A stretch of 64,000 bases of DNA. It comes from an uncultured Lachnospiraceae bacterium. GTDB taxonomy: Bacteria > Bacillota > Clostridia > Lachnospirales > Lachnospiraceae. The stretch is from assembly GCA_947567595.1 (NCBI GenBank), contig CANOMQ010000003.1:1-64000 (forward strand). Reading direction: 5' to 3'. The position numbers and the translations under genes are program-made. The notes beneath the pieces were generated by a model. That model ran no database searches and was not told the DNA's origin. It saw only the letters and a list, made by a program, of their open reading frames with translations. Shown here in pieces: positions 8,193-23,624 of the stretch (the first letter of the stretch is position 1; the number at the start of each line of letters is the position of its first letter).

Positions 8193-9644
8193 TTATACGT
8201 TAATTTCCGCCTTTACGCCAAGCTCCGCCTTGTTCGCGTCAAGCACGGGATTAACCACCTGTTCAAGGAACTTCTCCACCTGAACCGGGGCGCGTCCCAC
8301 ATACTTTGACGGCTCCATTGTCGCCTGTAACTGCTCTAACGTCAGGTTAAATTCCTTATCCGCCGCAATCAGCTCCAAGAGGTTGTTGTCCTTTCCCTCT
8401 TCCTTAACCATTTTTCCTGCTTCCATTGAAAGCTTGCGGATTTTCTCATGCAGCTCCTGACGGTTTCCGCCGTTCTTCACCGCGTCCATCATAATGTTTT
8501 CTGTCGCCATAAACGGCAGCTCGGCAAGCATGTGCTTCGTGATGACTTTATCATATACCACAAGCCCGTCCACGACATTCAGGCACAAATCCAAAATGCC
8601 GTCCACCGCAAGAAAGCCCTCGGGGATAGACAAACGTTTGTTTGCAGAGTCGTCAAGCGTACGCTCGAACCACTGCGTCGCCGACGTAATCGCCGGATTG
8701 AGCGCGTCAATCATGACATACCTTGAAAGGGAGGCAATGCGCTCGGAACGCATGGGATTGCGCTTGTATGCCATCGCCGACGAACCAATCTGATTTTTCT
8801 CAAACGGCTCCTCAACCTCCTTTAAATGCTGCAACAAGCGAATGTCATTTGACATTTTATGCGCGCTTGCCGCAATTCCCGCAAGAATGTTTGCCACCCT
8901 TGTATCGACCTTTCTCGAATACGTCTGACCGGATACCGCATAGCACTCATCAAAGCCCATTTTTTTCGCAATCATGGGGTCAATCTTGTCAATGGTTTCA
9001 TTGTCGCCATTAAACAGCTCCAAAAAGCTTGCCTGCGTGCCTGTCGTTCCCTTCGAGCCAAGCAGCTTTAAGCTTTTCTGCACATATTCCAAATCCTCCA
9101 AATCCATCAGAAACTCCTGCATCCAAAGCGTCGCGCGCTTTCCGACCGTTGTTGGCTGTGCGGGCTGGAAATGCGTAAAGGCAAGCGTGGGCAGGCTTTT
9201 ATACCTGTCCGCAAATTTCGCAAGCTCGTCAATCACGTTCACCAGCTTTTTGTGCACCAGCTTTAGCGCCTCATTCATCACGATAATGTCGGTGTTGTCG
9301 CCGACATAGCATGAGGTTGCGCCCAAATGGATAATGCCAGCCGCCTTGGGGCATTGCTGCCCGTACGCGTACACATGGCTCATGACATCATGGCGTACTA
9401 TTCTTTCGCGCTCCCTTGCCACGTCATAATTAATATCCTCGGCATGCGCTTTCAGCTCGTCAATCTGCTCCTGCGTAATCACGGGCTTACCGTTCTCCGA
9501 TAGCCCAAGCTCCATTTCCGTCTCCGCAAGCGCAATCCAAAGCCCGCGCCATGTCTTAAACTTCATGTCCTGTGAAAAAATGTACTGCATTTCCTTGCTT
9601 GCGTACCGCTCGGAAAGGGGGCTTGTATATCTGTCTGTGCTCAT
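8193..9644 (-). CDS. purB: Adenylosuccinate lyase
   Basis: A 483-aa enzyme of the fumarase/aspartase superfamily. It cleaves SAICAR to AICAR and adenylosuccinate to AMP, releasing fumarate both times. The family signature reads SSAMAYKRNPMRSE, and GATSCYVGDNTD and TTVGKRATLW are further active-site segments. The signature variant and the length, longer than the about 430 aa of Bacillus PurB, suggest the longer subfamily. The start at ATG 9644 (MSTDRYTSPL) was chosen for the SD AAAAGGAGTT 8 nt upstream; an upstream TTG/ATG extension of 11 residues is unlikely. It lies 70 bp after purF. Confidence 0.97.
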   Translation of the reverse strand: MSTDRYTSPLSERYASKEMQYIFSQDMKFKTWRGLWIALAETEMELGLSENGKPVITQEQIDELKAHAEDINYDVARERERIVRHDVMSHVYAYGQQCPKAAGIIHLGATSCYVGDNTDIIVMNEALKLVHKKLVNVIDELAKFADRYKSLPTLAFTHFQPAQPTTVGKRATLWMQEFLMDLEDLEYVQKSLKLLGSKGTTGTQASFLELFNGDNETIDKIDPMIAKKMGFDECYAVSGQTYSRKVDTRVANILAGIAASAHKMSNDIRLLQHLKEVEEPFEKNQIGSSAMAYKRNPMRSERIASLSRYVMIDALNPAITSATQWFERTLDDSANKRLSIPEGFLAVDGILDLCLNVVDGLVVYDKVITKHMLAELPFMATENIMMDAVKNGGNRQELHEKIRKLSMEAGKMVKEEGKDNNLLELIAADKEFNLTLEQLQATMEPSKYVGRAPVQVEKFLEQVVNPVLDANKAELGVKAEINV

Positions 9645-9714
9645 ATTCCTAACTCCTTTTTGCATTATATATAACATATGTTATTTATCATAACCTTCCA
9701 TATTTCAATATCCC

Positions 9715-11187
9715 TTATGCGTCATACTGTCCGCGAATATCCTCCGTCGGCGGCTCCATCGGATAATTTCCGTTAAAGCAGCCGGTACAGATTGGCAGTC
9801 CGCCTGCCATTTCCGACAGCCGCCCAAGCCCTAAATAGCCAAGCGAGTCCGCACCGATGATTGTCCGGATTTCCTCAACCGAGTGGTTATAGGCAATCAA
9901 CTGCTCGCGCTCCGGGACATCTGTCCCAAAATAACATGGCCACAAAAACGGCGGGGAGCTGATACGCACATGTACCTCGCGCGCGCCTGCCTCCCGGAGC
10001 ATTCTGACAATCCGATCCGAAGTCGTCCCACGCACAATTGAATCATCAATCATAATCACGCGCTTACCACAAACCGCCTCCTTCAAGACATTGAGCTTGA
10101 CCTTCACGCTTGACTCGCGGCTGCTCTGCTTTGGCTTGATAAAAGTCCTGCCGACATATCCGTTTTTGACAAACGCCGTGCCATAAGGGATTTTTGACTC
10201 AAGGGAATACCCAAGCGCTGCGGCATTTCCCGACTCGGGAACGCCGACCACAAGGTCTGCCTCCACCGGCGAATCCAGCGCGAGAAATCTTCCCGCCTGT
10301 ATCCGCGCCTCATACACGCTCACCCCGTCAATGCGGCTGTCCGGTCTTGCAAAGTAAATATACTCAAAAATACACCTTGCCTCCCGTTCCTTTGGAAGCG
10401 CCCTTGACAAATCCGAAAGAATCCCGCCGTCAGGCGTTATGGTAACCGTCTCCCCGGGCAATACGTCGCGCACAAACTCCGCGCCAATCGTATCAAGCGC
10501 GCAGGTCTCCGACGTGATGATATAGCTGTTTTCCCGTTTCCCGATGCAAAGCGGTCTGAACCCATACGGGTCCCGCGCCCCAATCAGCTTTCGCGGACTC
10601 ATCACGACAAGCGAATAGGCGCCCTCTATTTTCTGACACGCCCTGTTTACCGCTTCCTCCACGGTATCCGTATTCAGACGCTCCCTTGCAATATGATATG
10701 CAATAACCTCGGAATCAATCGTCGTCTGAAAAATCGCGCCCGTATACTCCAAATCGTGGCGCAGCTTTGCCGCGTTGATTAAGTTCCCGTTATGCGCAAG
10801 CGCAAGCGTGCCCTTCACATAATTGAGCACCAGCGGCTGCGCATTCTCGCGCGTGGACGCGCCTGCCGTCGAATAGCGCACATGACCGACGCCGATGTCC
10901 CCCTTCATGCGCTCCAAGTGCTCCGGCTCAAACACCTCGTTGACAAGTCCCATGCCCTTATGCGATGTGACCTTTCCCTTCGGGCCGCTTGTCTCACTCA
11001 CCGCAATGCCGCAGCTCTCCTGCCCTCTATGCTGTAGGGCAAACAACCCGTAATAAATGGTGGACGCTACGTCATTTCCGGCAAAATCATAAATGCCAAA
11101 AACGCCACACTCCTCCTTCAAGCCTGTTTCCCCAAGCCTGTTTTGTGTTTTTTCTATGCTAAAATCAAGCATTTCTTCATCATACAT
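9715..11187 (-). CDS. purF: Amidophosphoribosyltransferase
   Basis: A 490-aa enzyme that starts purine synthesis by making phosphoribosylamine from PRPP and glutamine. Residues 1-26 look like a propeptide: the sequence LKEECGVFGIYD puts the catalytic N-terminal nucleophile at Cys27 after self-cleavage. The PRPP loop is VIMIDDSIVRGTTS. Four cysteines match the [4Fe-4S] ligands of Bacillus PurF (ARCIFEY, LWPCYFG and ICTGC), so this is the oxygen-sensitive iron-sulfur type. It is 17 bp downstream of purC, so the two are co-transcribed. Confidence 0.97.
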   Translation of the reverse strand: MYDEEMLDFSIEKTQNRLGETGLKEECGVFGIYDFAGNDVASTIYYGLFALQHRGQESCGIAVSETSGPKGKVTSHKGMGLVNEVFEPEHLERMKGDIGVGHVRYSTAGASTRENAQPLVLNYVKGTLALAHNGNLINAAKLRHDLEYTGAIFQTTIDSEVIAYHIARERLNTDTVEEAVNRACQKIEGAYSLVVMSPRKLIGARDPYGFRPLCIGKRENSYIITSETCALDTIGAEFVRDVLPGETVTITPDGGILSDLSRALPKEREARCIFEYIYFARPDSRIDGVSVYEARIQAGRFLALDSPVEADLVVGVPESGNAAALGYSLESKIPYGTAFVKNGYVGRTFIKPKQSSRESSVKVKLNVLKEAVCGKRVIMIDDSIVRGTTSDRIVRMLREAGAREVHVRISSPPFLWPCYFGTDVPEREQLIAYNHSVEEIRTIIGADSLGYLGLGRLSEMAGGLPICTGCFNGNYPMEPPTEDIRGQYDA

Positions 11188-11204
11188 GGCTTTTGTGCCC
11201 CCGG

Positions 11205-12077
11205 TTACGCAAACGCTTTGCCTGTCAGAAGCGCAAACGCTTCCTTATATTTATCCACCGTCTTTGTCACAACCTCCTCGGGCAGCAGGTAATCGCTGTC
11301 GGGATTTGCCTTGAGCCAGTCCCTCACAAACTGCTTGTCAAACGAAGGCTGTCCCTTTCCTGCCTCATAACCTTCTAAAGGCCAGAAGCGCGAGCTGTCC
11401 GGTGTCAGCATTTCGTCACCCAGCACGACATTGCCGTTTTCGTCCAAGCCAAACTCAAACTTGGTATCCGCAATGATAATACCTTTGCTATACGCATAAT
11501 CTGCACATTTTTTATAAAGTGCAAGCGTCGCGTCCTTGATTTTTGTAGCATACTCCTCGCCGTGTCCGGGAAATTTTGCCTCGAGCACCTCAATGCTTTT
11601 CTCAAACGAAATATTCTCGTCATGCAAGCCGATTTCCGCCTTTGTGCTTGGCGTGTAAATCGGCTCAGGGAGCTTTTCGGACTCCTTTAAGCCCTCCGGC
11701 AGCTTAATGCCGCAGACCATGCCGTTTTCCTGATAGCTTGCCCAGCCGCTTCCCGTAATATAGCCGCGCACAATGCACTCAATCGGAAGCATTTCCAGCT
11801 TCTTGCACATCATGCTGTTCCCGTCAAATTTTTCGTTTTGGAAAAATTCAGGCATGTTCTTCACATCGACAGAAAGCATATGATTTGGCACGACATCTTT
11901 CGTAAAGTCAAACCAAAACTTGGACATCTGTGTCAGGATTGCGCCCTTGCCCGCGATTTTATTTTTAAGAATTACGTCAAATGCCGATATTCTGTCGGTC
12001 GCCACAATAATCAGGCTCTCGCCGTTATCATAAACCTCACGTACCTTACCTTCCTTAATTGGTGTAAATTCCTGCAT
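11205..12077 (-). CDS. purC: Phosphoribosylaminoimidazole-succinocarboxamide synthase (SAICAR synthetase)
   Basis: A 290-aa enzyme that couples CAIR and aspartate with ATP to give SAICAR. Recognisable parts are the N-terminal GKVREVYD nucleotide loop, ATDRISAFDV, and the signature LPIECIVRGYITGSG. The start at ATG 12077 (MQEFTPIKEG) is preferred over the ATG 12 nt upstream, because the SD GGAGG lies between the two codons with correct spacing only for the downstream one. First gene of the purC-purF-purB(-purA) group, behind a good promoter and a long leader hairpin. Confidence 0.97.
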   Translation of the reverse strand: MQEFTPIKEGKVREVYDNGESLIIVATDRISAFDVILKNKIAGKGAILTQMSKFWFDFTKDVVPNHMLSVDVKNMPEFFQNEKFDGNSMMCKKLEMLPIECIVRGYITGSGWASYQENGMVCGIKLPEGLKESEKLPEPIYTPSTKAEIGLHDENISFEKSIEVLEAKFPGHGEEYATKIKDATLALYKKCADYAYSKGIIIADTKFEFGLDENGNVVLGDEMLTPDSSRFWPLEGYEAGKGQPSFDKQFVRDWLKANPDSDYLLPEEVVTKTVDKYKEAFALLTGKAFA

Positions 12078-12201: not shown

Positions 12202-12230
12202 ATCATACCGAGTCTTTCCTCTTTATGCAA
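12202..12230 (-). promoter_or_regulatory. Candidate purC promoter
   Basis: On the minus strand, a -35 TTGCAT and a -10 TATGAT are 17 bp apart. The -35 overlaps the end of the upstream coiled-coil gene. The predicted start is near 12195, directly at the leader hairpin. Confidence 0.6.
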
Positions 12231-13404
12231 GTGCTTTTTCGTATTCCGACACCAAATCAATGATTTTTTCCGCGTACTCAGGATACTTTTCGATAATATC
12301 CTGTACCTCGCCCTGCGCGTCCTGCGCGGCTTTGGCATTGTACTCCATCTGCTTTCTTAGCTTCTGGCGCCGGATAATCAGGTTATGCCGGATTTCGACC
12401 ATCTCCTTGCTGTCAATCAGAGCCCGTGCCTGATGAAGCCATCTGCTCGGGTCCTGAAGGTTGCAGTGCTGCAGGAGACCTACAAGTGCCTTCTGGTTCT
12501 CGTCCATGTCCTCTAGCATCTTCTTTTCCTCCTCGCGCCGGTTTGACTCCTCAATATACTTATCCCAAAGCTTTTTAAGCTCCGCCGAGCTGTCCACCTC
12601 ATATTTGACATACAAGTATTCCAAAAGGTTCGTATTGTTTACATAACGTATCTTTACCTTGTTTTGCAGCAGCACGAGCTTGTTAATCGCCTTTTCCACC
12701 TTCACAAGCTCCCTCTGGGACTCATGAAAACGGACATACACAAACGTTAGCGCCGACGCCGCAATCAGAACCGCAATCGCATATCCCAAGTTCACGTCAA
12801 GATGCAGCCACATTCCGATAAAGGAAAGGAACAAAACGAGAAACAGCATCGAGCTTACACAGATGACCGTAATGCCCTTCATGTTCTTTTGCGCGTTAAT
12901 AAGCTCGTTGCGCCGGAAATAGTACGCGTGGCGTTCCCCGTCAAGCCTGCCCAAGTCCTTCTTGACAATCACCTGATATTCCTCCGCCTCCCGCAGCTTA
13001 TGATACCCGTCCGGCATATACTGCTCAATGCGCTCCATATGGTTAAACTCCGACTCCGGCATCAGCCCCTTGCGCTCCTCAAGCTTCTCCTTATTGCCCT
13101 CAAGCTCCACGATTTTTTTCGCATAGCCCCTAAGCTTCTCCTTAAGCTCCGGCGAGAGCGCCTCCACCTCCTCGATATCCGTAAGGTATGAGGTGACCAG
13201 ATTGTACTCTCCGCCCAGCGTTTCAAGCTCCTCGGAGGCATCTGACATCTGCGCAAGGCACGCCTTGATATATTCCTCACGCTGTATGCTGTCATGCATA
13301 TCCACGCTGTCACGGTTTAAGCCGGACTCGCCCCACTCCCCGTCATATTCGTATTCATCGTTTTCCCTCACAAAAAAACGCTTTATTTTTCCTAATAATC
13401 CCAT
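12223..13404 (-). CDS. Coiled-coil membrane protein of the DUF5716/DUF5717 cluster
   Basis: A 393-aa protein of no family I recognise. It starts with a basic amphipathic segment (GLLGKIKRFFV), then an acidic stretch and a long charged helical region to residue 175. Two membrane helices follow (about 177-200 and 205-225), and then a second charged helical region to the C-terminus. Both large halves are probably cytoplasmic with a short hairpin in the membrane. An SD (GGGGGAG) precedes the ATG. It is the last gene of a four-gene minus-strand cluster, 23 bp after the TPR gene. By position it could anchor the Hsp70-like protein and the helical-repeat proteins to the membrane; this is inference only. 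Confidence 0.7.
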   Translation of the reverse strand: MGLLGKIKRFFVRENDEYEYDGEWGESGLNRDSVDMHDSIQREEYIKACLAQMSDASEELETLGGEYNLVTSYLTDIEEVEALSPELKEKLRGYAKKIVELEGNKEKLEERKGLMPESEFNHMERIEQYMPDGYHKLREAEEYQVIVKKDLGRLDGERHAYYFRRNELINAQKNMKGITVICVSSMLFLVLFLSFIGMWLHLDVNLGYAIAVLIAASALTFVYVRFHESQRELVKVEKAINKLVLLQNKVKIRYVNNTNLLEYLYVKYEVDSSAELKKLWDKYIEESNRREEEKKMLEDMDENQKALVGLLQHCNLQDPSRWLHQARALIDSKEMVEIRHNLIIRRQKLRKQMEYNAKAAQDAQGEVQDIIEKYPEYAEKIIDLVSEYEKALA

Positions 13405-13427
13405 TGAAAACTCCCCCTATCGTCCAC

Positions 13428-14261
13428 TTATTCCTTTGTCTGACGCCTGTAATCCTTTTTAAGCTGCTTAATCAGCTCTCCCATGCGCTTATGGTAGCCC
13501 TCCCTGTCCACGGAGTCCCGCAGCTGCCCGATTTCCGCAACAAGCTGCCGCTCCCTAGAGCCTTCCCATTTGTCCTGCGTCGCAAGCACAAGCTCCTGCG
13601 CCCGCAAAAAATCCTGCTCCCACTCAGGATTTTCCCGCTGAAAGCTCCCAAACGCATAATCCGAAAGCGACATTTTCTTTGCCAATATGTACGCAAGCCT
13701 TGTCTGCGCGTCCGGCTTTATCGTATAGGAGCGGTAGTAAAGCCCCGCTGCCTCCTCATACGCAAAATCCATCGCATAGATGGACGCCATGTTGTAGTAC
13801 ATCAGCGCCCTTCCCGTTTCGTCCGTCGCCTCAAGGTGATCCAAAAGCTCCGAATAAATGGCAAGTGCCTGTCGGAAGCGTCCCTGCTGATATAAATACT
13901 CCGCGCGTTTTTTGTACCGCTGTATCGTGGTTAGCGACGACTGATCCTTTAAAATACGCTCCACGCGCTTTACCGTCCCAGAGTCATACATTCCCGTCCG
14001 CTCAAGAATGGTCGTCACAAACGCGGACACGGAGACATGCTTCCTGACAAAAACGTCCAGCTCGTCCGCAAGCGTGCCAAGTCCGCACTCGTTACGAATC
14101 CATGTCACCAGCTCCGCGGATACCACCGAATCGTCAAGCAGATGAACACGCTCCAAAAAATAATAACACAATTCTTCTATGGAATAAAGTGATATATCCA
14201 AAAACTTTACATAATATGGCTTTTGGGCATATTTCCCAACGCATAAGCACACGTTATTCAT
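13428..14261 (-). CDS. TPR-type protein of the DUF5716/DUF5717 cluster
   Basis: A 277-aa predicted cytoplasmic protein. The N-terminal about 100 residues have no clear match. Residues about 110-190 are tetratricopeptide-like: AEYLYQQGRFRQALAIYSEL, then RALMYYNMASIYAMDFAYEEAAGLYYRSY. The C-terminus is highly charged and helical. Its ATG overlaps the stop codon of the Hsp70-like gene by one base (TGATG), so the two products are translationally coupled and probably made in matched amounts. TPR proteins commonly bind Hsp70-type chaperones, which makes a direct partnership plausible but unproven. Confidence 0.75.
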   Translation of the reverse strand: MNNVCLCVGKYAQKPYYVKFLDISLYSIEELCYYFLERVHLLDDSVVSAELVTWIRNECGLGTLADELDVFVRKHVSVSAFVTTILERTGMYDSGTVKRVERILKDQSSLTTIQRYKKRAEYLYQQGRFRQALAIYSELLDHLEATDETGRALMYYNMASIYAMDFAYEEAAGLYYRSYTIKPDAQTRLAYILAKKMSLSDYAFGSFQRENPEWEQDFLRAQELVLATQDKWEGSRERQLVAEIGQLRDSVDREGYHKRMGELIKQLKKDYRRQTKE

Positions 14262-15580
14262 CAGCTAATAACCTCCAACGGCAGACATTCCCTCCATATT
14301 CTGCCCGTAGACGGGAAGAACTCTCCAAAACCCTTATCTGTTATTTCAATCTGAACCGCCTGCGAATCCTCCATAAAAAAGCGCAGCCCTACCCTGTTTG
14401 TCTTGTTTCCGCGTACCTTCAAGCCTTCCAAGGATATTTTTGCAAGCCGGATTTTGCTCCCGTCAACAGGGGCAATGTTTAAAGTAAAGGTGTTATTTTT
14501 TGTCAGCAGCACGTCAAACTCGCGCTCTGCATCATACCAGTTCGTGCCCGCGTCAAGAATGGGGAAATAAATTTCCTCCTGTCCCTTGTCGCAGTTCATG
14601 CCAATGTTTGCGCGCAGCTTGTCCTCGGACAGATAGACATAGGAGGTCGAAAGCGTCGACGTAAATACCTTTTCCCGCGCGCCATAGCATGCCCCCTTGC
14701 TGAACAGATTGTTTCCCTGAAATACCCGCCGCTCCCGGCACAGATACCGCAGGGACTCCTTGCACCATTCCCTTGAAAAATAATCGCCCAATAAAAATAC
14801 AGATGTTATGTTATGCTTTCCGCACTGCTCCTTCGCAATCTCCAACAGCTCCGCATCAAGCTGCCTGTAAAACGCGGTTTTTGCCGCCTCCTGCTTTTGC
14901 GGCAGGTCAGCCGGCTTCATTTCCGGGAACAGCTCGGACTCAATAAAGCAGGCAACCGGATTTGTTTTGCGGTTCATCGTCAGAAGATAGCTTTTCACGC
15001 CGTCGCTGCGGTAGTCGTACAAAAGCACGTCATGAATCCACATTTCACTTGGCTGGTGAAGCATGTACTGGAAAAAGCAGTCCTCATGGCTTAAAAAATA
15101 GAGCTTTTTCTCCTCCAGCCCTGCCTGCACAGCCGCCCTTTTGACATTCTCCATCAACTGGCTGTTCATGTCACGCATCGTAAACGCAATGGCTTCAATG
15201 TCCTCCGTCCTTACATACAGAGATAAAATAGCAAGCGTTTTTCTAATAAATTCCGCAAGCAGGGCGTCCGCCGCGATATCCGCGTCCTCTGTCTTGACGG
15301 ACACGTTATTTTTCGCCAAAAGCACCAAATCCTCTATCAGCATTCCCTTTTTGTCGGAAGCGTCCCGAAGCGCCTCCGTCCCAATGCTCCACATCGCGGC
15401 TTCCTCTGTCTTGTGTCTTTTGCACAATACGGTTGGAATGTTGAACTGCTCCTCCCCCATGACAAGGCTCATTGTGTCGGGCATACTTTGATCCGCCCGG
15501 CAATAGCTCACCTGCGAATAATCATTCCCCAAGTCAAAGCCCACAACTGCCTTGTTCTTTCTCAACATATCTGTAAACAT
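14261..15580 (-). CDS. Divergent Hsp70/actin-like protein, DUF5716-type
   Basis: A 439-aa protein that reads as a reduced Hsp70. Residues 12-22 (VVGFDLGNDYS) match the phosphate-1 loop of the actin/Hsp70 ATPase fold. Residues 162-174 resemble the connect-1 helix. Residues 261-301 (VFLLGDYFSREWC..ACYGA) resemble the adenosine motif. The phosphate-2 loop at 186-194 reads LLYDYRSDG and lacks the usual Gly-rich GGGT, so ATP hydrolysis may be weak or lost. After residue 325 comes a beta-rich region (NNTFTLNIAPVDGSKI) placed like the substrate-binding domain of DnaK. There is no lid and no EEVD tail. I recall the family as DUF5716, with no known function. It lies between the DUF5717 gene (42-bp gap) and the coupled TPR gene. 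Confidence 0.75.
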   Translation of the reverse strand: MFTDMLRKNKAVVGFDLGNDYSQVSYCRADQSMPDTMSLVMGEEQFNIPTVLCKRHKTEEAAMWSIGTEALRDASDKKGMLIEDLVLLAKNNVSVKTEDADIAADALLAEFIRKTLAILSLYVRTEDIEAIAFTMRDMNSQLMENVKRAAVQAGLEEKKLYFLSHEDCFFQYMLHQPSEMWIHDVLLYDYRSDGVKSYLLTMNRKTNPVACFIESELFPEMKPADLPQKQEAAKTAFYRQLDAELLEIAKEQCGKHNITSVFLLGDYFSREWCKESLRYLCRERRVFQGNNLFSKGACYGAREKVFTSTLSTSYVYLSEDKLRANIGMNCDKGQEEIYFPILDAGTNWYDAEREFDVLLTKNNTFTLNIAPVDGSKIRLAKISLEGLKVRGNKTNRVGLRFFMEDSQAVQIEITDKGFGEFFPSTGRIWRECLPLEVIS

Positions 15581-15622
15581 GGTATCCCTTACTCCCCTTT
15601 ATACCGCTGCCGCAGGTTCCCC

Positions 15623-18600
15623 TTATAATACCCGGAACAGCTCCCTCGAACAATAATCCTGATACATATACTCCTCAAGCGTGCCGGCAGCAGTCGCCTC
15701 GTCCTGCATGGCGATGCTCACAAGCATGTCGTTTAAAATGCCAAAGCGGTCTGTCTGCTGACCGTCCACCTCGCCGTCGTCAAGCAGCGTGTCGCTCTGC
15801 GTGATATGCTCCTGAACCCCTTCGCCGTCCTTTGCATACAGCTCCGTGATATAGTACTGCACTGCTTCCCCGTGGAAAATCTGAAACATACTCACATGAA
15901 TGCCGTCAAACATCTCCCGCATCTCCACCGTCTCATAGCGCTCATAATCCGGCATATCCCCGGGCTCCTCCACCGGGCTCTCACCTTCTGCTGTGACAGC
16001 ACCGCACTGGCTTGCGTAATCCGTGCCATAAGCGTAATGGATATAGACCGGATTGCCCGGAGTGGTGCGGTACTCCACAAACACGCTGTTTTTGATATAG
16101 TGTAGCTGCGGTGCGTACCCCGCAAGCTTTTTATAAAACGGGAAATAAATCTCCTCCCGCAAAAGCTCTGCAAGCATGTCCGACACAACCTCCGGCTGGA
16201 TTTTTTCCAGCGTCCTTGGATTTTCAGACCAGAATTTAAGCAGCGCAAGCTTGCACGCCCTTGTTGCGGCAAGTCCCGCGTCAAATTCCTGATAAAGCCG
16301 CTCAAACACCGTAGGGCTAACAAGCGTCTCCGACACGAAATATTCATACGCCGTATCGACCAGAAGCTCATTCACAAGCATGATGTCATGGTTTGGATAG
16401 TCGGCATACTCCAACAGGATTTCGTCCCGCTCTGCAAGCGAAACGCCCGTGTACTTCATCTGCTTTAAAATCCGGTGCATGATGCTGCCTGTGTCAAGCT
16501 CTAACTCATGCGCCGATTTCCATAGCTTTTTTAGGGAAACCACCCGTCCCTCATAGTTGCGCACAAGATAACGCAGGATATTCTCGTCATACTTCATGTT
16601 TTTGTAGATATAATATGCCACGTTGACAAGAAATTCATCATACTCGTACGCGCGGCTGATGATACGCTTGCTGATAAGCCTTGCCACCGCCTTTGGCTCG
16701 ACGCCCGACACCCCGTACGTTTTTACCCAGTAATACGCCTTCTCAAACATGCCCCTTGAGACCATGTAACGGATAAACTCGGCGCGCTCCCCCGCGTCCA
16801 TTCCGTCCGCCAAGGTTTCCTCAAGAAAGACATCAAGCTCCCCAATCATATCGTTGTCATAATAAAATTTCAAAAGCTTTGTGCGGATTTCCCGTTTAAA
16901 GCCCTCCACAACCTGCGAGGACTCCGCAAGGTTTTTAAAGCGCCTTACATTCTCCGGCGTAATCGTGACATAATTCTTGTCAACCTCGCACAAATACACG
17001 TCAAAGCTAAGACGCCCCTGCATGTAATCGCTGATATACGACAACTGCTTTTCAGGCTCCATCAACTGCCTGTTTTCATAATGAATGCTTTTGGTAAAAC
17101 GACAACCGTTCTCGTCCTGCAAAAAAAGCTTGTACTCGCTTCCGTAAATCGGTATCATGCAGACATTGTCCAAAACCGGATAATTGCTTTCACCGTTCAC
17201 CTTCTCATGGACGATGACAACGCTCCTGACCTTCGGATTGTCCACATAGATACGGTGCATGAACAAAAGCGGCGCAAACGCGTACGCGGTCTCCTCCGTA
17301 ATCATGTGCTGAGCCAGAACCTTCTTATATAAATACGCCAGATTTTCATTGATGTGTCCCTGCCGCACCTGCTCTATCACAAACCGCTCAATCGCGATGC
17401 GGTAGCTTGGCTCCAAATCCGGATACTTTTCCTTGTTTTTGATGATGTACGCGTACAAAAACGCATTCAGCTCATAATCCAGCGTGCTCTGATACGCAAA
17501 ATACATCAAGACCATTTTGGGAATTTCAAACGACTTTTCCTTAATGTCCCCATACCGGTCAAGCTCCAAGGACATCATATAATATTCATACAGCTTCGTG
17601 ACGCGCACCGCGTACTCTACGCCAAGCGCGTACCAGCAGTAGTAATCCTTGCTCCTCTTATCTCCCAAAATCAGCATATGGCAGATGGACGCAATGGTCT
17701 GCGGCGATTTGTAGGTATAGTACACCTCATAGAGCGTTCTTAGCAGAAGATTGGAATACGTGTCCTTTCTTGCCTCAAGATACTGTACCTGCTCAATCAA
17801 ATCCGGCATGAGTTGCTGGTTTTTGGCGCCAAACCAAAGCACCTTCTCCTCAAAATCGCCAAGCTTGATTAAAAACGTGGGATTTTCCTGCAATAAAAGC
17901 ACTGCCTCGCAGTACATCAGCGGACTGTCACAGCCGTTTTCGTACATCTGCTCGATATAGCTCCACCGCAAATCGGCATCAATAAAAAGCTCCTCCTTCA
18001 ACTGCAGCACAAACCATGCCAAAAGCCATTGCCCGGGGTTCTCCAGATAGGCGCCCTCAAGCTCGACGCACACGCGCTCTATGTACTCCTTGTCCTGATT
18101 GAAAAACGTGGTCAGATAAAGATAATAGCCCTTCGCCTCGGCGCTCGCCCGCTCCTCCACAAGCCGCTGCTCTAACGTGTCAAGGTACCACTTTGCCTCG
18201 TTTGTGCGCTCCTTCTCCAAAAGCAGGTGCGTGTGGTACAGCATATAGACAAGGTTATCCTCGTCAAGCTCGCAAAGCGCGTCGGCGCTTTCCTCCAGCA
18301 CCGCCACCCACTCATGCTTTGTCCTCTTCTCAAAGAGCATCTCCACGTATGCCTTTATCATATTGCATAACATATGTTTTTCTTTTCGGTCCCTGTCCCG
18401 CTTTCCCGGCTCGTCCTCCATGATGATGTCAAACGGAATGGCATAGTCATTGCAGGCGTCATGCAGCATGATGCTGCCACTGTTTACACCGTTATGCAGC
18501 TTTGCCGCATCGACATATATCATTAAATTACACTTGTTATTTTCAAAATCACGGCTTTCCAGCACGTCCCTGTCCGTGCTTAAAAAATCTCCCTCCGCGC

Positions 18601-19252
18601 TGATGTTCAGATAGCTGTAGCCCCAGCCGCTCCTTGTAATCACAACCTGCCGCTGTGTGCTGTCCTGAATGTCCTCCAGCAAAAAGCCCTCAATGTCAAA
18701 GCTGTAGACAATGGGCGTCTTTTTGCTGATTTCGATTAAAAACTCCTCAACATTCTGCTCATTTCCTTCGTTTTTGGAAAGTCCCACATAAGAAAGCCTT
18801 GCGTTTTTATCACTGCGATGAAACAGCGAGGAAAAATCAGGCGAATAAAAAAGCGCCACCGCTTCATTCCAGCTTGTCTGTGCAAGGTTAGTAAAATGAA
18901 ACAGGTTTTTAATGCTCCCAATCGAGCTTTCCAGATGCGGCTTCTGTACACTGATTTTGTACGGAATCGTGTACTCCTTACAATTGCTGATAATGTCAAA
19001 TTCACCCTTTATCGTAGTTCCGGCTTCTGCTGCTGCCGCGTCAAAGCAATAGCAAATCTCGTTCTCCATTCCCCGAAACGCAGCGTCCGACAGGCGCATT
19101 CTCGTATCGGACGAATAAATCCGCCCCTCCGCAAAGCTCCAGTCAGCATAGATAAAAAAGCTCCCTTGCGTAAGCTCCCCTGCCCTTACATTCAGCTCAA
19201 TACTCTCACAGGAAAATTCAAGATAACGCTGCTGTCTGCCGTTTTCCCTCAT
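15623..19252 (-). CDS. Giant helical-repeat protein, DUF5717-type
   Basis: A 1209-aa protein without a signal peptide or membrane segment, so probably cytoplasmic. The first about 280 residues are beta-rich and look like two Ig-like modules (YLEFSCESIELNVRAGEL and later VVITRSGWGYSYLNISAEGD). From about residue 285 to 1050 it is almost all alpha-helical, with repeated Tyr/Leu/Glu-rich helix pairs reminiscent of TPR/HEAT solenoids. The last about 150 residues return to mixed beta structure. I recall this as DUF5717, a Lachnospiraceae family of unknown function. It is the first gene of the four-gene cluster, and the attL site of the integrated element lies only 36 bp upstream of its start. No enzymatic motif was seen; a scaffold or client-binding role is inference. 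Confidence 0.75.
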   Translation of the reverse strand: MRENGRQQRYLEFSCESIELNVRAGELTQGSFFIYADWSFAEGRIYSSDTRMRLSDAAFRGMENEICYCFDAAAAEAGTTIKGEFDIISNCKEYTIPYKISVQKPHLESSIGSIKNLFHFTNLAQTSWNEAVALFYSPDFSSLFHRSDKNARLSYVGLSKNEGNEQNVEEFLIEISKKTPIVYSFDIEGFLLEDIQDSTQRQVVITRSGWGYSYLNISAEGDFLSTDRDVLESRDFENNKCNLMIYVDAAKLHNGVNSGSIMLHDACNDYAIPFDIIMEDEPGKRDRDRKEKHMLCNMIKAYVEMLFEKRTKHEWVAVLEESADALCELDEDNLVYMLYHTHLLLEKERTNEAKWYLDTLEQRLVEERASAEAKGYYLYLTTFFNQDKEYIERVCVELEGAYLENPGQWLLAWFVLQLKEELFIDADLRWSYIEQMYENGCDSPLMYCEAVLLLQENPTFLIKLGDFEEKVLWFGAKNQQLMPDLIEQVQYLEARKDTYSNLLLRTLYEVYYTYKSPQTIASICHMLILGDKRSKDYYCWYALGVEYAVRVTKLYEYYMMSLELDRYGDIKEKSFEIPKMVLMYFAYQSTLDYELNAFLYAYIIKNKEKYPDLEPSYRIAIERFVIEQVRQGHINENLAYLYKKVLAQHMITEETAYAFAPLLFMHRIYVDNPKVRSVVIVHEKVNGESNYPVLDNVCMIPIYGSEYKLFLQDENGCRFTKSIHYENRQLMEPEKQLSYISDYMQGRLSFDVYLCEVDKNYVTITPENVRRFKNLAESSQVVEGFKREIRTKLLKFYYDNDMIGELDVFLEETLADGMDAGERAEFIRYMVSRGMFEKAYYWVKTYGVSGVEPKAVARLISKRIISRAYEYDEFLVNVAYYIYKNMKYDENILRYLVRNYEGRVVSLKKLWKSAHELELDTGSIMHRILKQMKYTGVSLAERDEILLEYADYPNHDIMLVNELLVDTAYEYFVSETLVSPTVFERLYQEFDAGLAATRACKLALLKFWSENPRTLEKIQPEVVSDMLAELLREEIYFPFYKKLAGYAPQLHYIKNSVFVEYRTTPGNPVYIHYAYGTDYASQCGAVTAEGESPVEEPGDMPDYERYETVEMREMFDGIHVSMFQIFHGEAVQYYITELYAKDGEGVQEHITQSDTLLDDGEVDGQQTDRFGILNDMLVSIAMQDEATAAGTLEEYMYQDYCSRELFRVL

Positions 19253-19288: not shown

Positions 19289-19311
19289 TATACAATATTT
19301 GTTGACATAAG
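19289..19311 (+). repeat. attL core, 23-bp direct repeat
   Basis: The sequence begins TATACAATATTTGTTG and ends ACATAAG, and it is identical over 23 bp to 25005-25027. It sits 36 bp upstream of the DUF5717 gene start, inside the likely promoter region of that gene. Confidence 0.88.
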
Positions 19312-19421
19312 AAAAGTATATATTTCATTATTTTTCAAAACATGTCATTTTCCTTGATTTTACGCTATTGTTTCGTGTGTTATTTTATCAGCATGTTTCA
19401 ATACGTAGTGTTATGTAACAC

Positions 19422-19437
19422 TGCTTATGTTATAAAA
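19422..19437 (+). repeat. Left arm-type repeat, candidate integrase site
   Basis: The 16-bp sequence TGCTTATGTTATAAAA occurs here and again in the same orientation at 24917-24932, about 110 and 73 bp inside the two att cores. Tn916-type integrases bind such inner repeats with their N-terminal domain. Confidence 0.6.
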
Positions 19438-19449
19438 ATGTTATATTTT

Positions 19450-20679
19450 TTAGATCGCTTCATGCATTCTCTCTGCCTTCTCTATCTCTGACTGCATTAT
19501 GGTATCATCTACATGATTATATATATTCATGGTCGTATTGATATCGGAATGCCCCATAAATTTTTGCAACACCTTTATATTAATATTTGTTTCCGCTAAT
19601 CTTGTACATGCCGTATGTCTTAATGTATGGCAGCTAATATGAGGCAATAGGCACGCTTCCCGTTTCTCCGTTGCTGCCTTTTTCTGTTCTTCTCTGTTGT
19701 ATGCGTTGACCATATTATATATAAAGTTGCTTACATTTGTCGGATCGTAAGGCTTACTTGTCGTTGTGGTGAATACAAAATTTTTAAGCCCCGCAACCTC
19801 CATGTCATGGTCGATGCCCAGCATCAATTGCAATTCTTTCTGACGCATTAAAGCTTTGTAACATTTTTTTGTCATTGGTAGCACTCTAAAGCCTGCCTCT
19901 GATTTGGGTGTGGTGTTAATAAAACTATGCCCTTTATTTTCTCCTGTTTTCACATATCTTAGTTGATGATTTATTGATATTGTCCTGTTTTTCATGTCCA
20001 CATCTTCCCATGTAAGTCCTATTATCTCTCCTAATCTGCATGCAGTAGCAAGCGCAAAGGTAATGAATGGAACATATATATTATACCTTGCGGATTTGCT
20101 GATAAAATCCAGTAGCCGTTCTTGCTGCTCCACGGTCAGAACTGCTTTTTTTTCCGATTTTTTGTTATACTCTTTTGTGCAGTTTTTCGCGGGATTTTTT
20201 CGGACAATGTCATCATCAAGCGCACTTTCAAACGTTGGGTACAGCAAATTTGCGTATGCTCTTATGCTTCCATCTTTCAATCCTTTCTCTGATAAATATT
20301 TGTAAAAAAGCTGTATGTCAGATTTCTTTATGTCCGCAATCCTTTTTTTGCCCAGCCCGTCAAGAACATATTTATTCCACTTATCTTGATAATCTGTCTT
20401 AGTGGCTGCTTTAATATTCTTGGTTCTGATATATATTTCAAACTGTTCGTTTAATGTTCGGTTTAACGCAGCAATATTTATTCCGTCCTCTATACATTTT
20501 AATAGCCTCGCTGCTTCCTGCCGCAACTCTATCAAATCATTGTTATATATCCGCCTGCGCTTTCCGTATGCGTCCGTATAGTTAAAATAATAACGCCCGT
20601 TTTTGTCCTGCCCTTCTCCTTTCTTTAAAATTCTTCCACGTTTGTCCTTTCGTGTTGTGCTTTGTCTTTCTTTAACCAT
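19450..20679 (-). CDS. int: Tyrosine recombinase/integrase, Tn916 type
   Basis: A 409-aa integrase that would join the element to its attB site. Residues 14-60 form the AP2-like, three-stranded arm-binding domain (RYYFNYTDAYGKRRRIY). Residues 75-165 are the SAM-like core-binding domain. The catalytic domain has Arg215 (TACRLGEI), His351 and Arg354 (HTLRHTACTR), His377 (LQKFMGHSD) and the nucleophile Tyr387 (NIYNHV), so it looks complete and active. An SD (GAAGGAG) and a good promoter precede it. It is transcribed toward attL, 140 bp away, as in many such elements. No separate excisionase was identified; one of the small genes could serve. Confidence 0.95.
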   Translation of the reverse strand: MVKERQSTTRKDKRGRILKKGEGQDKNGRYYFNYTDAYGKRRRIYNNDLIELRQEAARLLKCIEDGINIAALNRTLNEQFEIYIRTKNIKAATKTDYQDKWNKYVLDGLGKKRIADIKKSDIQLFYKYLSEKGLKDGSIRAYANLLYPTFESALDDDIVRKNPAKNCTKEYNKKSEKKAVLTVEQQERLLDFISKSARYNIYVPFITFALATACRLGEIIGLTWEDVDMKNRTISINHQLRYVKTGENKGHSFINTTPKSEAGFRVLPMTKKCYKALMRQKELQLMLGIDHDMEVAGLKNFVFTTTTSKPYDPTNVSNFIYNMVNAYNREEQKKAATEKREACLLPHISCHTLRHTACTRLAETNINIKVLQKFMGHSDINTTMNIYNHVDDTIMQSEIEKAERMHEAI

Positions 20680-20721
20680 TTTTCATTCTCCTTCTGTATA
20701 AGCATGACAAAAGGTACTTAC

Positions 20722-20750
20722 ATTGTACATAATTCTTTTGCACTTGTAAA
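20722..20750 (-). promoter_or_regulatory. Candidate integrase promoter
   Basis: On the minus strand, TTTACA and TACAAT are separated by 17 bp, followed by a short leader and the SD GAAGGAG of the integrase gene. Confidence 0.6.
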
Positions 20751-20770
20751 TTTGCTTGTTGGTTTTGCCG

Positions 20771-20811
20771 TTCGCAAGCTTCAACTATTCGCAAAACGTT
20801 TATTTTGCGAA
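20771..20811. repeat. Cluster of TTCGCAA repeats with a 9-bp palindrome
   Basis: TTCGCAA occurs at 20771 and 20788 in direct orientation and inverted at 20805-20811. The latter two make a perfect hairpin TTCGCAAAA/TTTTGCGAA with a 6-nt loop (20788-20811). No T-run follows, so it is not a terminator. It lies just upstream of the integrase promoter and may bind a regulator of integrase expression or a replication protein. Confidence 0.5.
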
Positions 20812-20967
20812 ATCTTAAATGTAAAACCGCTGAAATGCCCTATTTACAATGATTTCGGGGTTTTTTGCTTTTTCCTTGTCATGCTGTTTTTGTTTCATTG
20901 TGTATTATACAGTGTCATTATGTATAAATATGCATTATTATGTGTATATTCGTATATTTATGCATGA

Positions 20968-21195
20968 TTATATGCTTTTGTGTTCTAACATGTGTTTGCC
21001 TTTTTGTTTAAACGTATGTTCTTTGTCCGGCATGGGGGAATTCTGTGTTTGCTGATGCGATGGATTGTGTCCGGTGCTGCCCTGCTGCCAGTGACGCCGA
21101 TCAGCTTCGCCATGCCGCTGTGATACTGCTGCCGTGTCGGCATATTGGCAGCAGCCTTTGCATGCGTCGGTTATCCAGTGCCTTTGTATGCTCAC
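20968..21195 (-). CDS. Small unknown protein of the element, GTG start
   Basis: A 75-aa hydrophilic protein rich in His, Gln and Arg, with a CKGCC cluster near residue 13-17. No family is recognised. It is included because the GTG start is preceded by a perfect AGGAGG SD with 6-nt spacing. Against it: unusual composition and no recognisable fold. A short, diverged copy of its start region (MS..RHW) occurs at 24492-24520. Apart from this ORF I see no coding sequence between 20680 and 21407; the AT-rich stretch 20812-20967 holds only short imperfect repeats. Confidence 0.35.
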   Translation of the reverse strand: MSIQRHWITDACKGCCQYADTAAVSQRHGEADRRHWQQGSTGHNPSHQQTQNSPMPDKEHTFKQKGKHMLEHKSI

Positions 21196-21407
21196 GTGGT
21201 GCCTCCTGCTGCCTTTTCTACCTTATGACAATTGTCCGTATCATGCTTTTCTTTTGTCCTGCGGTTCCGTTGGCGGTATCAGAGGGCATATCATACAAAA
21301 GGACAGGGCAATCTTATCTTGTCCCCGTCCTCTCCTGCTGCCACATGACTAAAATCCAGCTTCACTTACGCGCACGCGTAACGGTGTACGGAAACCCTGT
21401 TATGTTG

Positions 21408-21626
21408 TTATCCGTTCATGTTTCCCCGTAATGCTTCCAGTTCTGCCGGGGTGAATAAATTAGCCGAACATGATACCATTATCCCGTTGCCTGCATAGAG
21501 CATGACGCCTTCATCGTCTTCATCATCGATACGGGCATTACCCAGCGAGTAATTTCTTTTGCCTGCCTTTTCCTGCCGTTCTGCTGCCATCATTTCACGC
21601 CGGAAGCGTTTATTTGCTTTTTTCAT
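21408..21626 (-). CDS. Small unknown protein downstream of rep
   Basis: A 72-aa protein starting MKKANKRFRREMMAAERQ, with a basic N-terminal helix followed by an acidic DDEDDEG stretch and a C-terminal FTPAELEALRG helix. No family is recognised. The start at ATG 21626 follows an SD-like AAGGA about 11 nt upstream; an upstream ATG at 21737 would add 37 residues and overlap the end of rep. It is transcribed with rep and could be a replication accessory or excision factor, on position alone. Confidence 0.55.
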   Translation of the reverse strand: MKKANKRFRREMMAAERQEKAGKRNYSLGNARIDDEDDEGVMLYAGNGIMVSCSANLFTPAELEALRGNMNG

Positions 21627-21733
21627 GATTTTTTCGTCCTTTTCCTTTCCATTTCCGTCCACATCATGATATAACCAATATGGCAGCAGCCTCATCGTTC
21701 CGCGTGCGGATCTGCCGCCCGTCCTGCCATGCT

Positions 21734-22501
21734 TCAACAGGTCAGCCGTACAAGGGTATATTTCAGGAACGAATACCCTGTTTCCTCATGAATGCCCATT
21801 CTGACGCTCTCCTTGTCAAGATAGTAGCCTTTGGGCGGTTTTATCTCATGGCTGAATGCGTCCCGTTTGATGACTCTCTTCCTCTCAACAGGCTTTACCA
21901 AATTCTTGCTTGCGTTCCAGCGCTTGCCCTGAAGCTCTCCCGTCGTCTTGAGCGTCTTCTCACTGTATTTGATGAAATAGTTTGCAAGCTTCCTGTAGTT
22001 GCCGTCTGAATACATCGGCTTGATTGTTGTACCGCCATGTGTCCATGCCCTGACTACCGCCCTCATGTCATCTATCCCGCTGATCACGATGTGTATATGT
22101 ACCGCTCCCCTGCTGCCGACCTCCGCAACCCAAACATACCTGAATACTTTTTTATGCTTTTTATACAGGTTACGCATTGTGCGCAGGTACCGTTTCATAA
22201 TTCCGCTTATCCCCTTCTTTCCCTTCGGGCGCTCCTCCGGTCTGAAATCCAGTGTCAGGTAATAATCATCACCGCAGAAATTCGCGTCAAGCTGCTTTTC
22301 CAGCTTCTCCTCTGCCTGCCGCAGGTTTACTTTTTTCTGTGCCTCACTTGTGGGGTTGCGCTTCGGCTCCCTCCTGCCTTCCTTCCTGCTGTGATGACGT
22401 ATGGAATAATATAATTTTACGTGTTTCGTTTTTCCTGCCCTGCAGGTCTTTTTGATGTACGGCATGTATGCAACCACTCTTTCGTTTTTATGTTTGGTCA
22501 T
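21734..22501 (-). CDS. rep: HUH-type rolling-circle replication initiator
   Basis: A 255-aa protein with the order of motifs of HUH endonucleases: motif 1 YYLTLDF at 80-86, the metal-binding HIH at 135-137 (GAVHIHIVIS) and the catalytic Tyr in YFIKYSEK at 175-182. It should nick a double-strand origin and start rolling-circle replication of the excised circle; related proteins may also act as relaxases. The N-terminus is strongly basic. The start is taken as ATG 22501 (MTKHKNERVV), with weak SD CAGGGA; an in-frame TTG at 22558 is possible. A likely antisense RNA is encoded in its leader. No helicase domain is present. Confidence 0.85.
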   Translation of the reverse strand: MTKHKNERVVAYMPYIKKTCRAGKTKHVKLYYSIRHHSRKEGRREPKRNPTSEAQKKVNLRQAEEKLEKQLDANFCGDDYYLTLDFRPEERPKGKKGISGIMKRYLRTMRNLYKKHKKVFRYVWVAEVGSRGAVHIHIVISGIDDMRAVVRAWTHGGTTIKPMYSDGNYRKLANYFIKYSEKTLKTTGELQGKRWNASKNLVKPVERKRVIKRDAFSHEIKPPKGYYLDKESVRMGIHEETGYSFLKYTLVRLTC

Positions 22502-22581
22502 TCCCTGAAAATATCCCGCAGCATGTCCATAGGATAATAAACTTATGAACCGTCGCAAGGGTTCAAAAACCCCGATTTTTC

Positions 22582-22610
22582 TTGACTTTTTCCGCTATGG
22601 GCATTATAAT
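22582..22610 (+). promoter_or_regulatory. Strong sigma-A promoter for an antisense RNA upstream of rep
   Basis: TTGACT at 22582-22587 and TATAAT at 22605-22610 are separated by exactly 17 bp. It is among the strongest promoter matches in the window. It points away from rep on the plus strand, and no plus-strand gene follows. Confidence 0.8.
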
Positions 22611-22616
22611 AAAAAT

Positions 22617-22696
22617 GTCTTTCGTAACCATGTTTGGTTATACATAGTGGATTTTACCGTCGGGCTTGTGGAAGGGTTGCCGACGGTAATTTTTTT
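22617..22696 (+). ncRNA. Predicted countertranscribed RNA of about 80 nt controlling rep
   Basis: The RNA would run from about 7 nt after the promoter to the T-tract at 22690-22696. It holds a small hairpin (TAACC, 6-nt loop, GGTTA) and a terminator hairpin with 10-bp arms TTACCGTCGG and CCGACGGTAA. Its whole length is complementary to the predicted leader of the rep mRNA on the other strand. Size, structure and place match RNAI-type copy-number regulators of rolling-circle plasmids such as pT181. Confidence 0.7.
22654..22696 (+). terminator. Intrinsic terminator of the antisense RNA
   Basis: Ten-bp perfect arms TTACCGTCGG (22654-22663) and CCGACGGTAA (22680-22689) are followed by seven T residues. 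The T-run is on the plus strand only, so it ends plus-strand transcription. Confidence 0.85.
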
Positions 22697-22710
22697 GTCC
22701 TTTTTTGCGT

Positions 22711-22739
22711 GTTGTATGCGAACTGATATTCTGAACCAA
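22711..22739 (-). promoter_or_regulatory. Candidate rep promoter
   Basis: On the minus strand, TTGGTT and TACAAC are 17 bp apart. A start near 22704 would place the entire antisense RNA target in a rep leader of about 200 nt. The match to consensus is modest. Confidence 0.4.
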
Positions 22740-22788
22740 TGTTTTTCAACCATTCTTCCCAAGCGGGAAAAATGGACACGGCGCATTT

Positions 22789-23001: not shown

Positions 23002-23024
23002 ACTTTGATTGTCCTTTCCTTTTC

Positions 23025-23579: not shown

Positions 23580-23624
23580 ATGTTGGTTACCTCGCTTTCG
23601 TTTGTGATTTGCCAACATTTTTAA

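Follow-up and report, generated by a model that had tools for sequence, protein, structure and literature searches.

A probable reduced descendant of an Hsp70 chaperone operon, retaining a pseudo-Hsp70 and its scaffold protein, in Lachnospiraceae

This study investigated a four-gene locus encoding DUF5717, DUF5716, TPR, and membrane coiled-coil proteins in a 64,000-nucleotide stretch of DNA from a Lachnospiraceae bacterium (the window). Sequence comparison, predicted structure, and trees strongly suggest that this locus descends by reduction from a dedicated Hsp70 chaperone operon, and we regard this part of the interpretation as very probable. That DUF5716 works as a holdase or adaptor without an ATP cycle is an evenly balanced proposal, and for the whole statement, namely descent by reduction together with this mechanism, we estimate a probability of approximately 0.5.

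The locus and its conservation in the family

The ORF list of the window contained four minus-strand ORFs of 1209, 439, 277, and 393 aa, separated by gaps of 42, -1, and 23 bases, as an earlier note on this DNA had described. The 1209-aa gene (15623..19252, minus strand) encodes the scaffold protein DUF5717, in which Pfam identified DUF5717_N (PF18984; 6.2e-276, 918 bits) and DUF5717 (PF18983; 6.8e-75, 252 bits), with cut-offs of 25 and 25 bits. The 439-aa gene (14261..15580, minus strand) encodes DUF5716, which matched DUF5716_C (PF18980) at 7.5e-103 (344 bits; cut-off, 34.7). These matches lie above the curated cut-offs and confirm both family names given in the note. The 277-aa gene (13428..14261, minus strand), the start of which has one base in common with the end of the DUF5716 gene, encodes a putative TPR adaptor with its TPR region at approximately residues 116-188; its Pfam TPR matches fall below the cut-offs (TPR_12, 2.4e-6, 28.1 bits vs. 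30.1). The 393-aa gene (12223..13404, minus strand) encodes protein M, which yielded no Pfam match and carries two hydrophobic segments (178-196 and 202-220 by hydropathy), predicted to be transmembrane, between two coiled coils that were assigned by eye. A mobile element cutting the start of DUF5717 was also considered and rejected; the direct repeat in question (19289-19311) is situated upstream of the gene's start codon (19252).

The predicted structure of DUF5717 residues 1-1198 (model m433f3c4e53c5; mean pLDDT, 86.9) had a pTM of 0.61, at which the relative placement of domains is unsure. It comprised two beta domains of PapD/ASH-like type, a pair of alpha-solenoid stretches, another two beta domains, and a C-terminal helix pair. 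The first PapD/ASH-like domain spans residues 11-114 (18911..19222, minus strand) and the second, Ig/PapD-like domain spans residues 182-278 (18419..18709, minus strand). The solenoid stretches, residues 284-663 and 736-1053, flank a small beta domain at 665-729 (together 16094..18403, minus strand) and gave low TM-score Foldseek matches to eukaryotic TPR scaffold complexes. Hydropathy indicated no transmembrane segment in DUF5717. The modeled PapD-like/solenoid make-up is what we add here for this Pfam family of unknown function.

DUF5717 was present in 147 of 150 genomes of the window's family. For the analysis of gene order, we used 61 loci, comprising the window and loci from 60 genomes drawn, for long contigs and spread, from the 147 positives in the family. 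The results revealed that the DUF5717, DUF5716, and TPR genes occur in this order and on the same strand in 60 of the 61 loci, and that the gaps between them have medians of 15 bases (n = 61) and -4 bases (n = 58), an arrangement that exceeds chance. The DUF5716 and TPR genes are fused in two relatives (L055 and L090), the only ones flagged by a clean TPR profile; 427-aa ORFs were rejected as further fusions because their labels came from an over-extended profile. The M gene was found in 28 of the 61 loci and in 44 of 100 family genomes, lying on the DUF5717 contig within approximately 10 kb in 40 of the 44 and on another contig in the remaining four (G009, G039, G055, and G092; counted by eye). 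The first three genes are therefore conserved together across genomes, but M is optional, and neither an invariant four-gene set nor the membrane anchor as a fixed part of the complex, as the earlier note had it, could be upheld. Two fairly complete family genomes (G029 and G091) lack both DUF5717 and DUF5716, indicating that the complex is not indispensable. The distance-matrix correlations among DUF5717, DUF5716, and the TPR protein (partial r, 0.37-0.92) lack a control with unrelated pairs and carry little weight.

Among the sampled genomes of the order Lachnospirales, DUF5717 was absent from 102 of 196. A phylum-wide sample yielded 5 positives in 398 genomes, all from the window's family, but this sample holds few genomes of the order, as does that of the class-wide search for DUF5716_C. 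The DUF5716_C profile also passes its cut-off in the B proteins of sister families described below.

A predicted Hsp70-type fold and its catalytic residues

The model of DUF5716 (m82570b58749b; pLDDT, 93.6; pTM, 0.90) predicted two canonical Hsp70 features, an actin/Hsp70-type nucleotide-binding domain at residues 10-312 (14645..15553, minus strand; by structural alignment) and an SBD-beta-like sandwich at residues 318-434 (14279..14629, minus strand). The best structural matches were DnaK, Ssz1, and Hsp110. Hsp70-type entries accounted for all 50 best VIA matches listed and for 48 of the best 50 Foldseek matches listed, the other two being ciliary central pair chains, and a sequence-profile comparison also linked DUF5716 to DnaK (2.7e-7). 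The modeled strands of the SBD-beta cover residues 324-434, full-length Hsp70 alignments reach residue 434-439, and 12 SBD-beta positions are conserved at 70% or more. The protein is predicted to end without an alpha-helical lid, the model containing no helix of at least four residues past residue 313. These findings agree with the reduced Hsp70/actin-like protein of the earlier note and suggest an Hsp70 identity for a second Pfam family of unknown function, an assignment added here from the model and the sequence. With the gene order conserved across genomes and the fold predicted to be of the Hsp70 type, neither of the two outcomes named in the note as refuting its proposal was seen. The actin-like cytoskeletal switch is not favored, given the SBD-beta and the Hsp70 matches, which also lower the claim of a cytoskeleton-like machine, although a structural role is still compatible with them.

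We then compared the catalytic positions in an alignment of DUF5716 from 58 of the 61 loci, leaving out the fused L055 and L090 as well as L084, and using DnaK numbering (D8, T11, K70, E171, D194, GGG, and T199). T11, K70, E171, and the whole GGG-T loop were kept in none of the 58 homologues, T199 in 2, D194 in 29, and D8 in 50. In the window, V86, H165, and G194 align with DnaK K70, E171, and T199. Besides phosphate-2, nearly the whole family has thus lost phosphate-1, the Thr, and the catalytic Lys and Glu, and cycling of DUF5716 by ATP hydrolysis, as distinct from nucleotide binding, is therefore unlikely; judged by its residues, DUF5716 looks like a pseudo-Hsp70 rather than a nucleotide switch. 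The divergent phosphate-2 loop mentioned in the earlier note is indeed lost, but so are the other motifs, and the role of nucleotide switch proposed there is at odds with the missing catalytic residues.

The long operon of sister families

In sister families of Lachnospirales, a longer operon occupies this locus. It comprises genes for a PapD-like protein and a helical scaffold, for three Hsp70s whose motifs are intact (A, C, and D, the last carrying vWA), for a GrpE-domain protein (E), a pseudo-Hsp70 (B), and a TPR protein (T), and in some loci for a coiled-coil membrane protein. The order A-E-B-C-D-T was found in 24 of 51 long-operon loci (L130-L180), some of which come from genomes that are also in the other locus set (e.g., L135 = L113, L131 = L120), so that the two sets are not independent. 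Pfam identified the GrpE domain in all six E proteins tested (279-645 aa), in a terminal position, and the vWA domain in all three D proteins tested. K70, E171, T11, T199, and the GGG-T loop were all intact in every row of Hsp70-A (17), C (13), and D (10). A CobD-like gene lies upstream of the operon in 26 of the 61 family loci; 16 of the 51 long-operon loci also have one, and all 26 family copies match those 16 by blastp.

Within the window's family, DUF5717 combines the PapD-like and helical proteins in one chain, and otherwise only DUF5716 and the TPR protein are left, with or without M. Hsp70-A was detected in 67 of 72 sampled DUF5717-bearing genomes outside the window's family and in none of the window's-family genomes of the same order-wide sample. 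Retention of Hsp70-A elsewhere in the family genomes was considered and rejected; 35 of 100 genomes gave matches at a limit of 1e-50, the best scoring 206 bits, and these were DnaK-sized frames. When the class was searched with the helical profile of the long operon, 11 of 245 genomes matched, nine from the window's family and two, from one other family, with weak partial matches that were not counted as members.

A careful Hsp70 tree, built from 42 of 71 rows after six long rows had been dropped and A, C, and D thinned, placed DUF5716 as one clade (100/99) inside a group of B and DUF5716 (100/100), sister to L110_B (100/100). This position inside the pseudo-Hsp70 branch suggests that the window locus is a reduced descendant of the long operon. 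The dedicated chaperone machine of the earlier note is accordingly supported, by the long operon and the trees, as regards descent from a chaperone operon, but not as regards its ATP switch. We put forward more tentatively that a four-Hsp70 machine, complete with a dedicated GrpE-domain factor and a PapD-like/solenoid platform, evolved in Lachnospirales, and that one large family of the order may have shed all the ATPases while retaining the pseudo-Hsp70 and the platform as a near-universal ATP-free core, conserved because of the pseudo-enzyme.

Proposed mechanism, alternatives, and known systems

By analogy with yeast Ssz1, the SBD-beta of DUF5716 would bind an exposed peptide, or a segment of a partner, and keep hold of it with no ATP-driven cycle involved. 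The PapD-like domains and solenoid of DUF5717 would form the platform, the TPR protein would link this platform to DUF5716, and M, where present, would tether the complex to the membrane. Clients might be taken over by the housekeeping DnaK, and the function of the complex may have shifted altogether along with the gene and residue losses. A main family of gut bacteria carries this near-universal complex of no known role, and its ancestry provides a concrete handle. If the interpretation is true, the complex would be a bacterial chaperone system pared down to its pseudo-enzyme, which is unusual, and the long operon of the sister families offers a natural comparison of this apparently ATP-free machine with its active form.

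The loss of ATPase motifs in DUF5716, the scaffold-like DUF5717, the membrane coiled-coil proteins of the 51 long-operon loci (M in 7 and cluster c6 in 13, never together), and the ciliary central pair chains among the Foldseek matches of both models would also fit a structural, cytoskeleton-like or envelope-organizing assembly, in which DUF5716 is purely an assembly part and its chaperone function is lost. We consider this rather unlikely, given the retained SBD-beta with its 12 conserved positions and the listed structural matches, which are nearly all Hsp70s and not actin or MreB. A slightly more doubtful explanation has DUF5716 as a degenerate Hsp70 whose target is RNA or the ribosome instead of unfolded protein, with the complex acting on translation. 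RNA binding has been proposed (PMC11090510) for Hsp70-like proteins with degenerate ATP motifs such as CnuD of the CoCoNuT systems; valS is found no more than seven genes downstream in 15 of the 61 loci and adjoins the operon in 9, a matter of gene neighborhood only, and RNA-linked complexes occur among the low-scoring matches of the DUF5717 solenoid. However, neither an RNA-binding domain nor a nuclease was identified by Pfam in the four window proteins, and the GrpE-domain protein beside the long-operon paralogues points to an Hsp70 protein cycle.

The resemblance of the long operon to the neighborhoods of GAP1-N2 GTPases (PMC7159879) raises a further alternative, a biological-conflict (defense) system of the HSP70/GrpE theme, which we regard as very improbable. 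The Pfam scan of the nine operon proteins of L113, the one locus scanned, contained no GTPase domain, and near-universal presence in the family with a single family clade in the Hsp70 trees is unlike the behavior of patchy defense genes. PADLOC returned one match among the four window proteins (E = 0.0053), and a known anti-phage defense system was rejected in the absence of a strong match; long-operon Hsp70 and TPR proteins matched unnamed candidate models at 2e-9 to 4e-5.

For the preferred interpretation, a holdase or adaptor complex descended from a chaperone operon, our literature search found no functional description of DUF5716/DUF5717 or of the operon, and among the papers searched DUF5716 occurred in the text of PMC8115291 alone and DUF5717 in none. 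The window proteins clearly belong to Pfam DUF5716_C and DUF5717, to which our analysis adds the connection with the long operon. Kaur et al. 2020 (PMC7159879) described GAP1-N2 neighborhoods of actinobacteria and firmicutes that contain HSP70, GrpE, another HSP70, and FNIII proteins carrying a DnaJ or TPR fusion; the long operon likewise combines HSP70 and GrpE with a beta-rich or TPR protein but, in L113, lacks a GTPase domain by Pfam, and its reduced form occurs almost universally in one family. Further comparisons are the PapD/ASH/MSP-like domains of HYDIN, CEP192, and FimC, and ciliary central-pair proteins, from which DUF5717 would differ as a bacterial protein with such domains fused to a long TPR-like solenoid. 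Yeast Ssz1, the non-canonical Hsp70 of the ribosome-associated complex, is 13-14% identical to DUF5716. Ssz1 pairs with a J protein, whereas no J domain was seen in Pfam scans of the four window proteins and the nine L113 operon proteins. The likeness to DnaK with GrpE lies in the intact-motif Hsp70s and the GrpE-domain protein of the long operon; in contrast to DnaK/GrpE, the long operon has four Hsp70 paralogues, one of them fused to vWA, and of this Hsp70 set the window retains the pseudo-Hsp70 alone.

The Four Genes and Their Conservation in the Lachnospiraceae

ORF calling bore out the four ORFs, their lengths, and the gaps of 42, -1, and 23 bp that the earlier note had read from the sequence. 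The first protein (1209 aa) matched the N-terminal and C-terminal Pfam models of DUF5717 and the second (439 aa) matched DUF5716_C, every score lying well over its cut-off; the TPR matches of the third (277 aa) all fell short of theirs. The fourth, a two-TM coiled-coil protein (393 aa; M), yielded no Pfam match, and no NCBIfam model matched any of the four over its cut-off. The window DUF5717 starts (19252) approximately 16 residues later than most aligned relatives, and its Pfam match begins at model position 16. A small integrated element (19289-25027) separates the DUF5717 start from a CAAX-protease gene; it encodes a Tn916-type integrase, a G2P-like replication protein, and an HTH regulator and has a 23-bp direct repeat at its two ends (19289-19311 and 25005-25027). 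The element adjoins an AddA/AddB-like helicase-nuclease pair (26511-33695; UvrD helicase and ADDB_N models).

A profile search of 150 Lachnospiraceae genomes drawn from across the genera of the family revealed DUF5717_N in 147, with a single match in 133 and two to five in the other 14, several of these being pieces on separate contigs. Two of the three genomes without DUF5717, G029 (93% complete) and G091 (98%), also lacked DUF5716, and the third, G020 (67%), carried it; among eight further genomes checked, only G128 (69% complete) lacked DUF5716. In samples poor in other genomes of the order, DUF5717_N matched 5 of 398 genomes of the phylum and DUF5716_C 9 of 245 of the class, every one from the Lachnospiraceae.

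We examined 61 loci, namely the window and 60 picked for long contigs from the 147 DUF5717-positive genomes. In 60 of them the DUF5717, DUF5716, and TPR genes lay in this order on a common strand, with median gaps of 15 and -4 bases; the exception, L085, had no TPR neighbour and runs to the contig end. DUF5716 and the TPR protein were fused into one ORF in L055 and L090, which we regard as the best non-experimental sign that the two may associate physically. The L090 fusion (9551-11605) is missing approximately 70 residues of the nucleotide-binding domain. M followed the trio in 28 of the 61 loci, on the same strand and with two hydrophobic segments in all 28, and was present in 44 of 100 genomes of the family. 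The near-universality of the trio in the family points to a useful role of the putative complex, though two fairly complete genomes lack DUF5717 and DUF5716.

The Long Operon in Sister Families

DUF5717_N was present in 94 of 196 genomes sampled from the order Lachnospirales, 72 of the 94 belonging to other families. The PapD-like and helical parts were separate genes in 14 of 20 other-family loci, and an Hsp70 (Hsp70-A) was encoded in 17; the remaining loci comprised a short trio (L127), the pseudo-Hsp70 B only (L116), and a locus with no Hsp70-like gene nearby (L128). A complete example, L113, carries genes for PapD-like, helical, Hsp70-A, E, B, C, D, TPR, and M proteins. Pfam assigned HSP70 to A, C, and D, GrpE to E (1.4e-14), both DUF5716_C and HSP70 to B, DUF5716_C also to C, and vWA to D; GrpE exceeded the cut-off in five of five further E proteins, and vWA was found in two of two further D proteins. 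In L110 (1340-3384), from family f143, the Hsp70 D gene is divided into two ORFs (2788-3384 and 1340-2824), a split that may mark a stage in the decay of the long operon.

Searching named genomes with Hsp70-A gave at least 137 relatives; among the 80 loci kept, 51 (L130-L180) matched with identities of 57-100% and the remaining 29 with no more than 31%. The 51 listed loci were labelled Defluviitalea, Candidatus Epulonipiscium, Defluviitaleaceae, Vallitaleaceae, Petrocella, Eubacteriaceae, Clostridiales, Clostridia, or Firmicutes, and a single MAG bore the label Turicibacter. A, E, B, C, D, and TPR genes succeeded one another in this order in 24 of the 51, with contig ends interrupting many others, and Hsp70-A stood alone, with the other operon members absent, in several. 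M occurred in 7 of the 51 and protein cluster c6 in 13. The c6 proteins, which gave no Pfam identity over cut-off, are coiled-coil proteins with hydrophobic segments, as judged by eye, and their genes precede either the PapD-like gene or Hsp70-A (for example, L134:4429-5811, upstream of the long operon). The two never shared a locus, which suggests that M and c6 may be alternative membrane tethers, although many of the loci are cut.

At a limit of 1e-120, with lists compared by eye, Hsp70-A was found in 68 of the 196 order genomes: in 67 of the 72 DUF5717-positive genomes of other families (the exceptions being G560, G650, G699, G704, and G723), in one without DUF5717 (G596), and in none from the Lachnospiraceae. 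The best match in 100 Lachnospiraceae genomes scored 206 bits in a DnaK-sized frame, and full-length matches elsewhere scored approximately 790-1100 bits. Hsp70-A and DUF5717 were widely separated in several genomes, by approximately 43 kb of a single contig in G613, for example, or fell on different contigs; their co-occurrence is therefore not explained by linkage alone. In L116 (5816-10915; genome G560, family f154), the PapD-like, helical, and B genes have no A, C, D, E, or TPR gene adjoining, and the genome yielded no Hsp70-A at 1e-120. This locus looks like a second, independent reduction of the long operon in another family.

Ancestry and ATP Site of DUF5716

In a tree of the Hsp70-like proteins, A, C, and D each formed a clade, and all 15 Lachnospiraceae DUF5716 rows formed one clade inside B, adjoining the B protein of the f143 genome, which carries the long operon (L110). 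A careful tree of 42 rows, with the longest left out, gave the same result; the group of B with DUF5716 had support of 100/100, and the DUF5716 clade 100/99. The helical protein of L110 also adjoined the family in its own tree. That of L127, labelled as family f147, was placed inside the Lachnospiraceae, and its trio (L127:3-2582) may reflect horizontal transfer or a contaminated MAG. A CobD-like aminotransferase gene (class from Pfam) lies upstream in 26 of the 61 Lachnospiraceae loci, directly beside DUF5717 in 20, and is also present in 16 of the 51 listed named long-operon loci; all 26 Lachnospiraceae proteins matched the 16 by blastp. Judged by this common neighbour, the genomic positions of the Lachnospiraceae locus and the long operon therefore correspond.

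DUF5716 was aligned with DnaK and the long-operon Hsp70s, an approximate comparison of highly divergent proteins, with positions in DnaK numbering. D8, G10, T11, T12, K70, E171, D194, the GGG loop, and T199 were kept in all rows of Hsp70-A (17), C (13), and D (10). The 13 B rows kept D8 in 12, D194 in 12, G10 in 11, and E171 in 1; K70, T12, G198, and T199 were kept in none. Among 58 Lachnospiraceae DUF5716 proteins, D8 was kept in 50, D194 in 29, G10 in 13, T12 in 4, and T199 in 2; T11, K70, E171, and the complete GGG-T loop were kept in none, and the first glycine of the adenosine loop in 57. The window protein has V86, H165, and G194 at the positions of K70, E171, and T199. Because catalytic positions are lost in this alignment, ATP hydrolysis by DUF5716 is unlikely. 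The protein may still bind nucleotide.

Proposed Function and Relation to Known Systems

Sequence and prediction together support an Hsp70 ancestry, lost catalytic residues, a retained substrate-binding beta sandwich, a scaffold bearing PapD-like domains, conserved linkage, and two fusions. DUF5717, DUF5716, and the TPR protein would form one complex, in which DUF5717 would collect or present clients and which M would tether. DUF5716 would bind a peptide or a segment of a partner at low affinity, with no ATP cycle involved, in the manner described for Ssz1 (PMC7083937). Alternatively, DUF5716 might bind RNA, an activity suggested for the degenerate Hsp70-like CnuD (PMC11090510), or the complex might be structural. 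The locus might also be a conflict system resembling the GAP1-N2 theme with HSP70/GrpE (PMC7159879).

In the open-licence literature searched, we found no mention of DUF5717, and DUF5716 appeared only in one unrelated paper. Searches on an Hsp70-GrpE-vWA operon, on a Lachnospiraceae core signature, and on Hsp70 with TPR in Lachnospiraceae gave no description of this system in the titles, abstracts, and passages covered. A variant reduced to an apparently ATP-free family core, together with an ancestral four-Hsp70 operon, thus appears undescribed within the open-licence literature searched; the Hsp70 system as a kind is already known.
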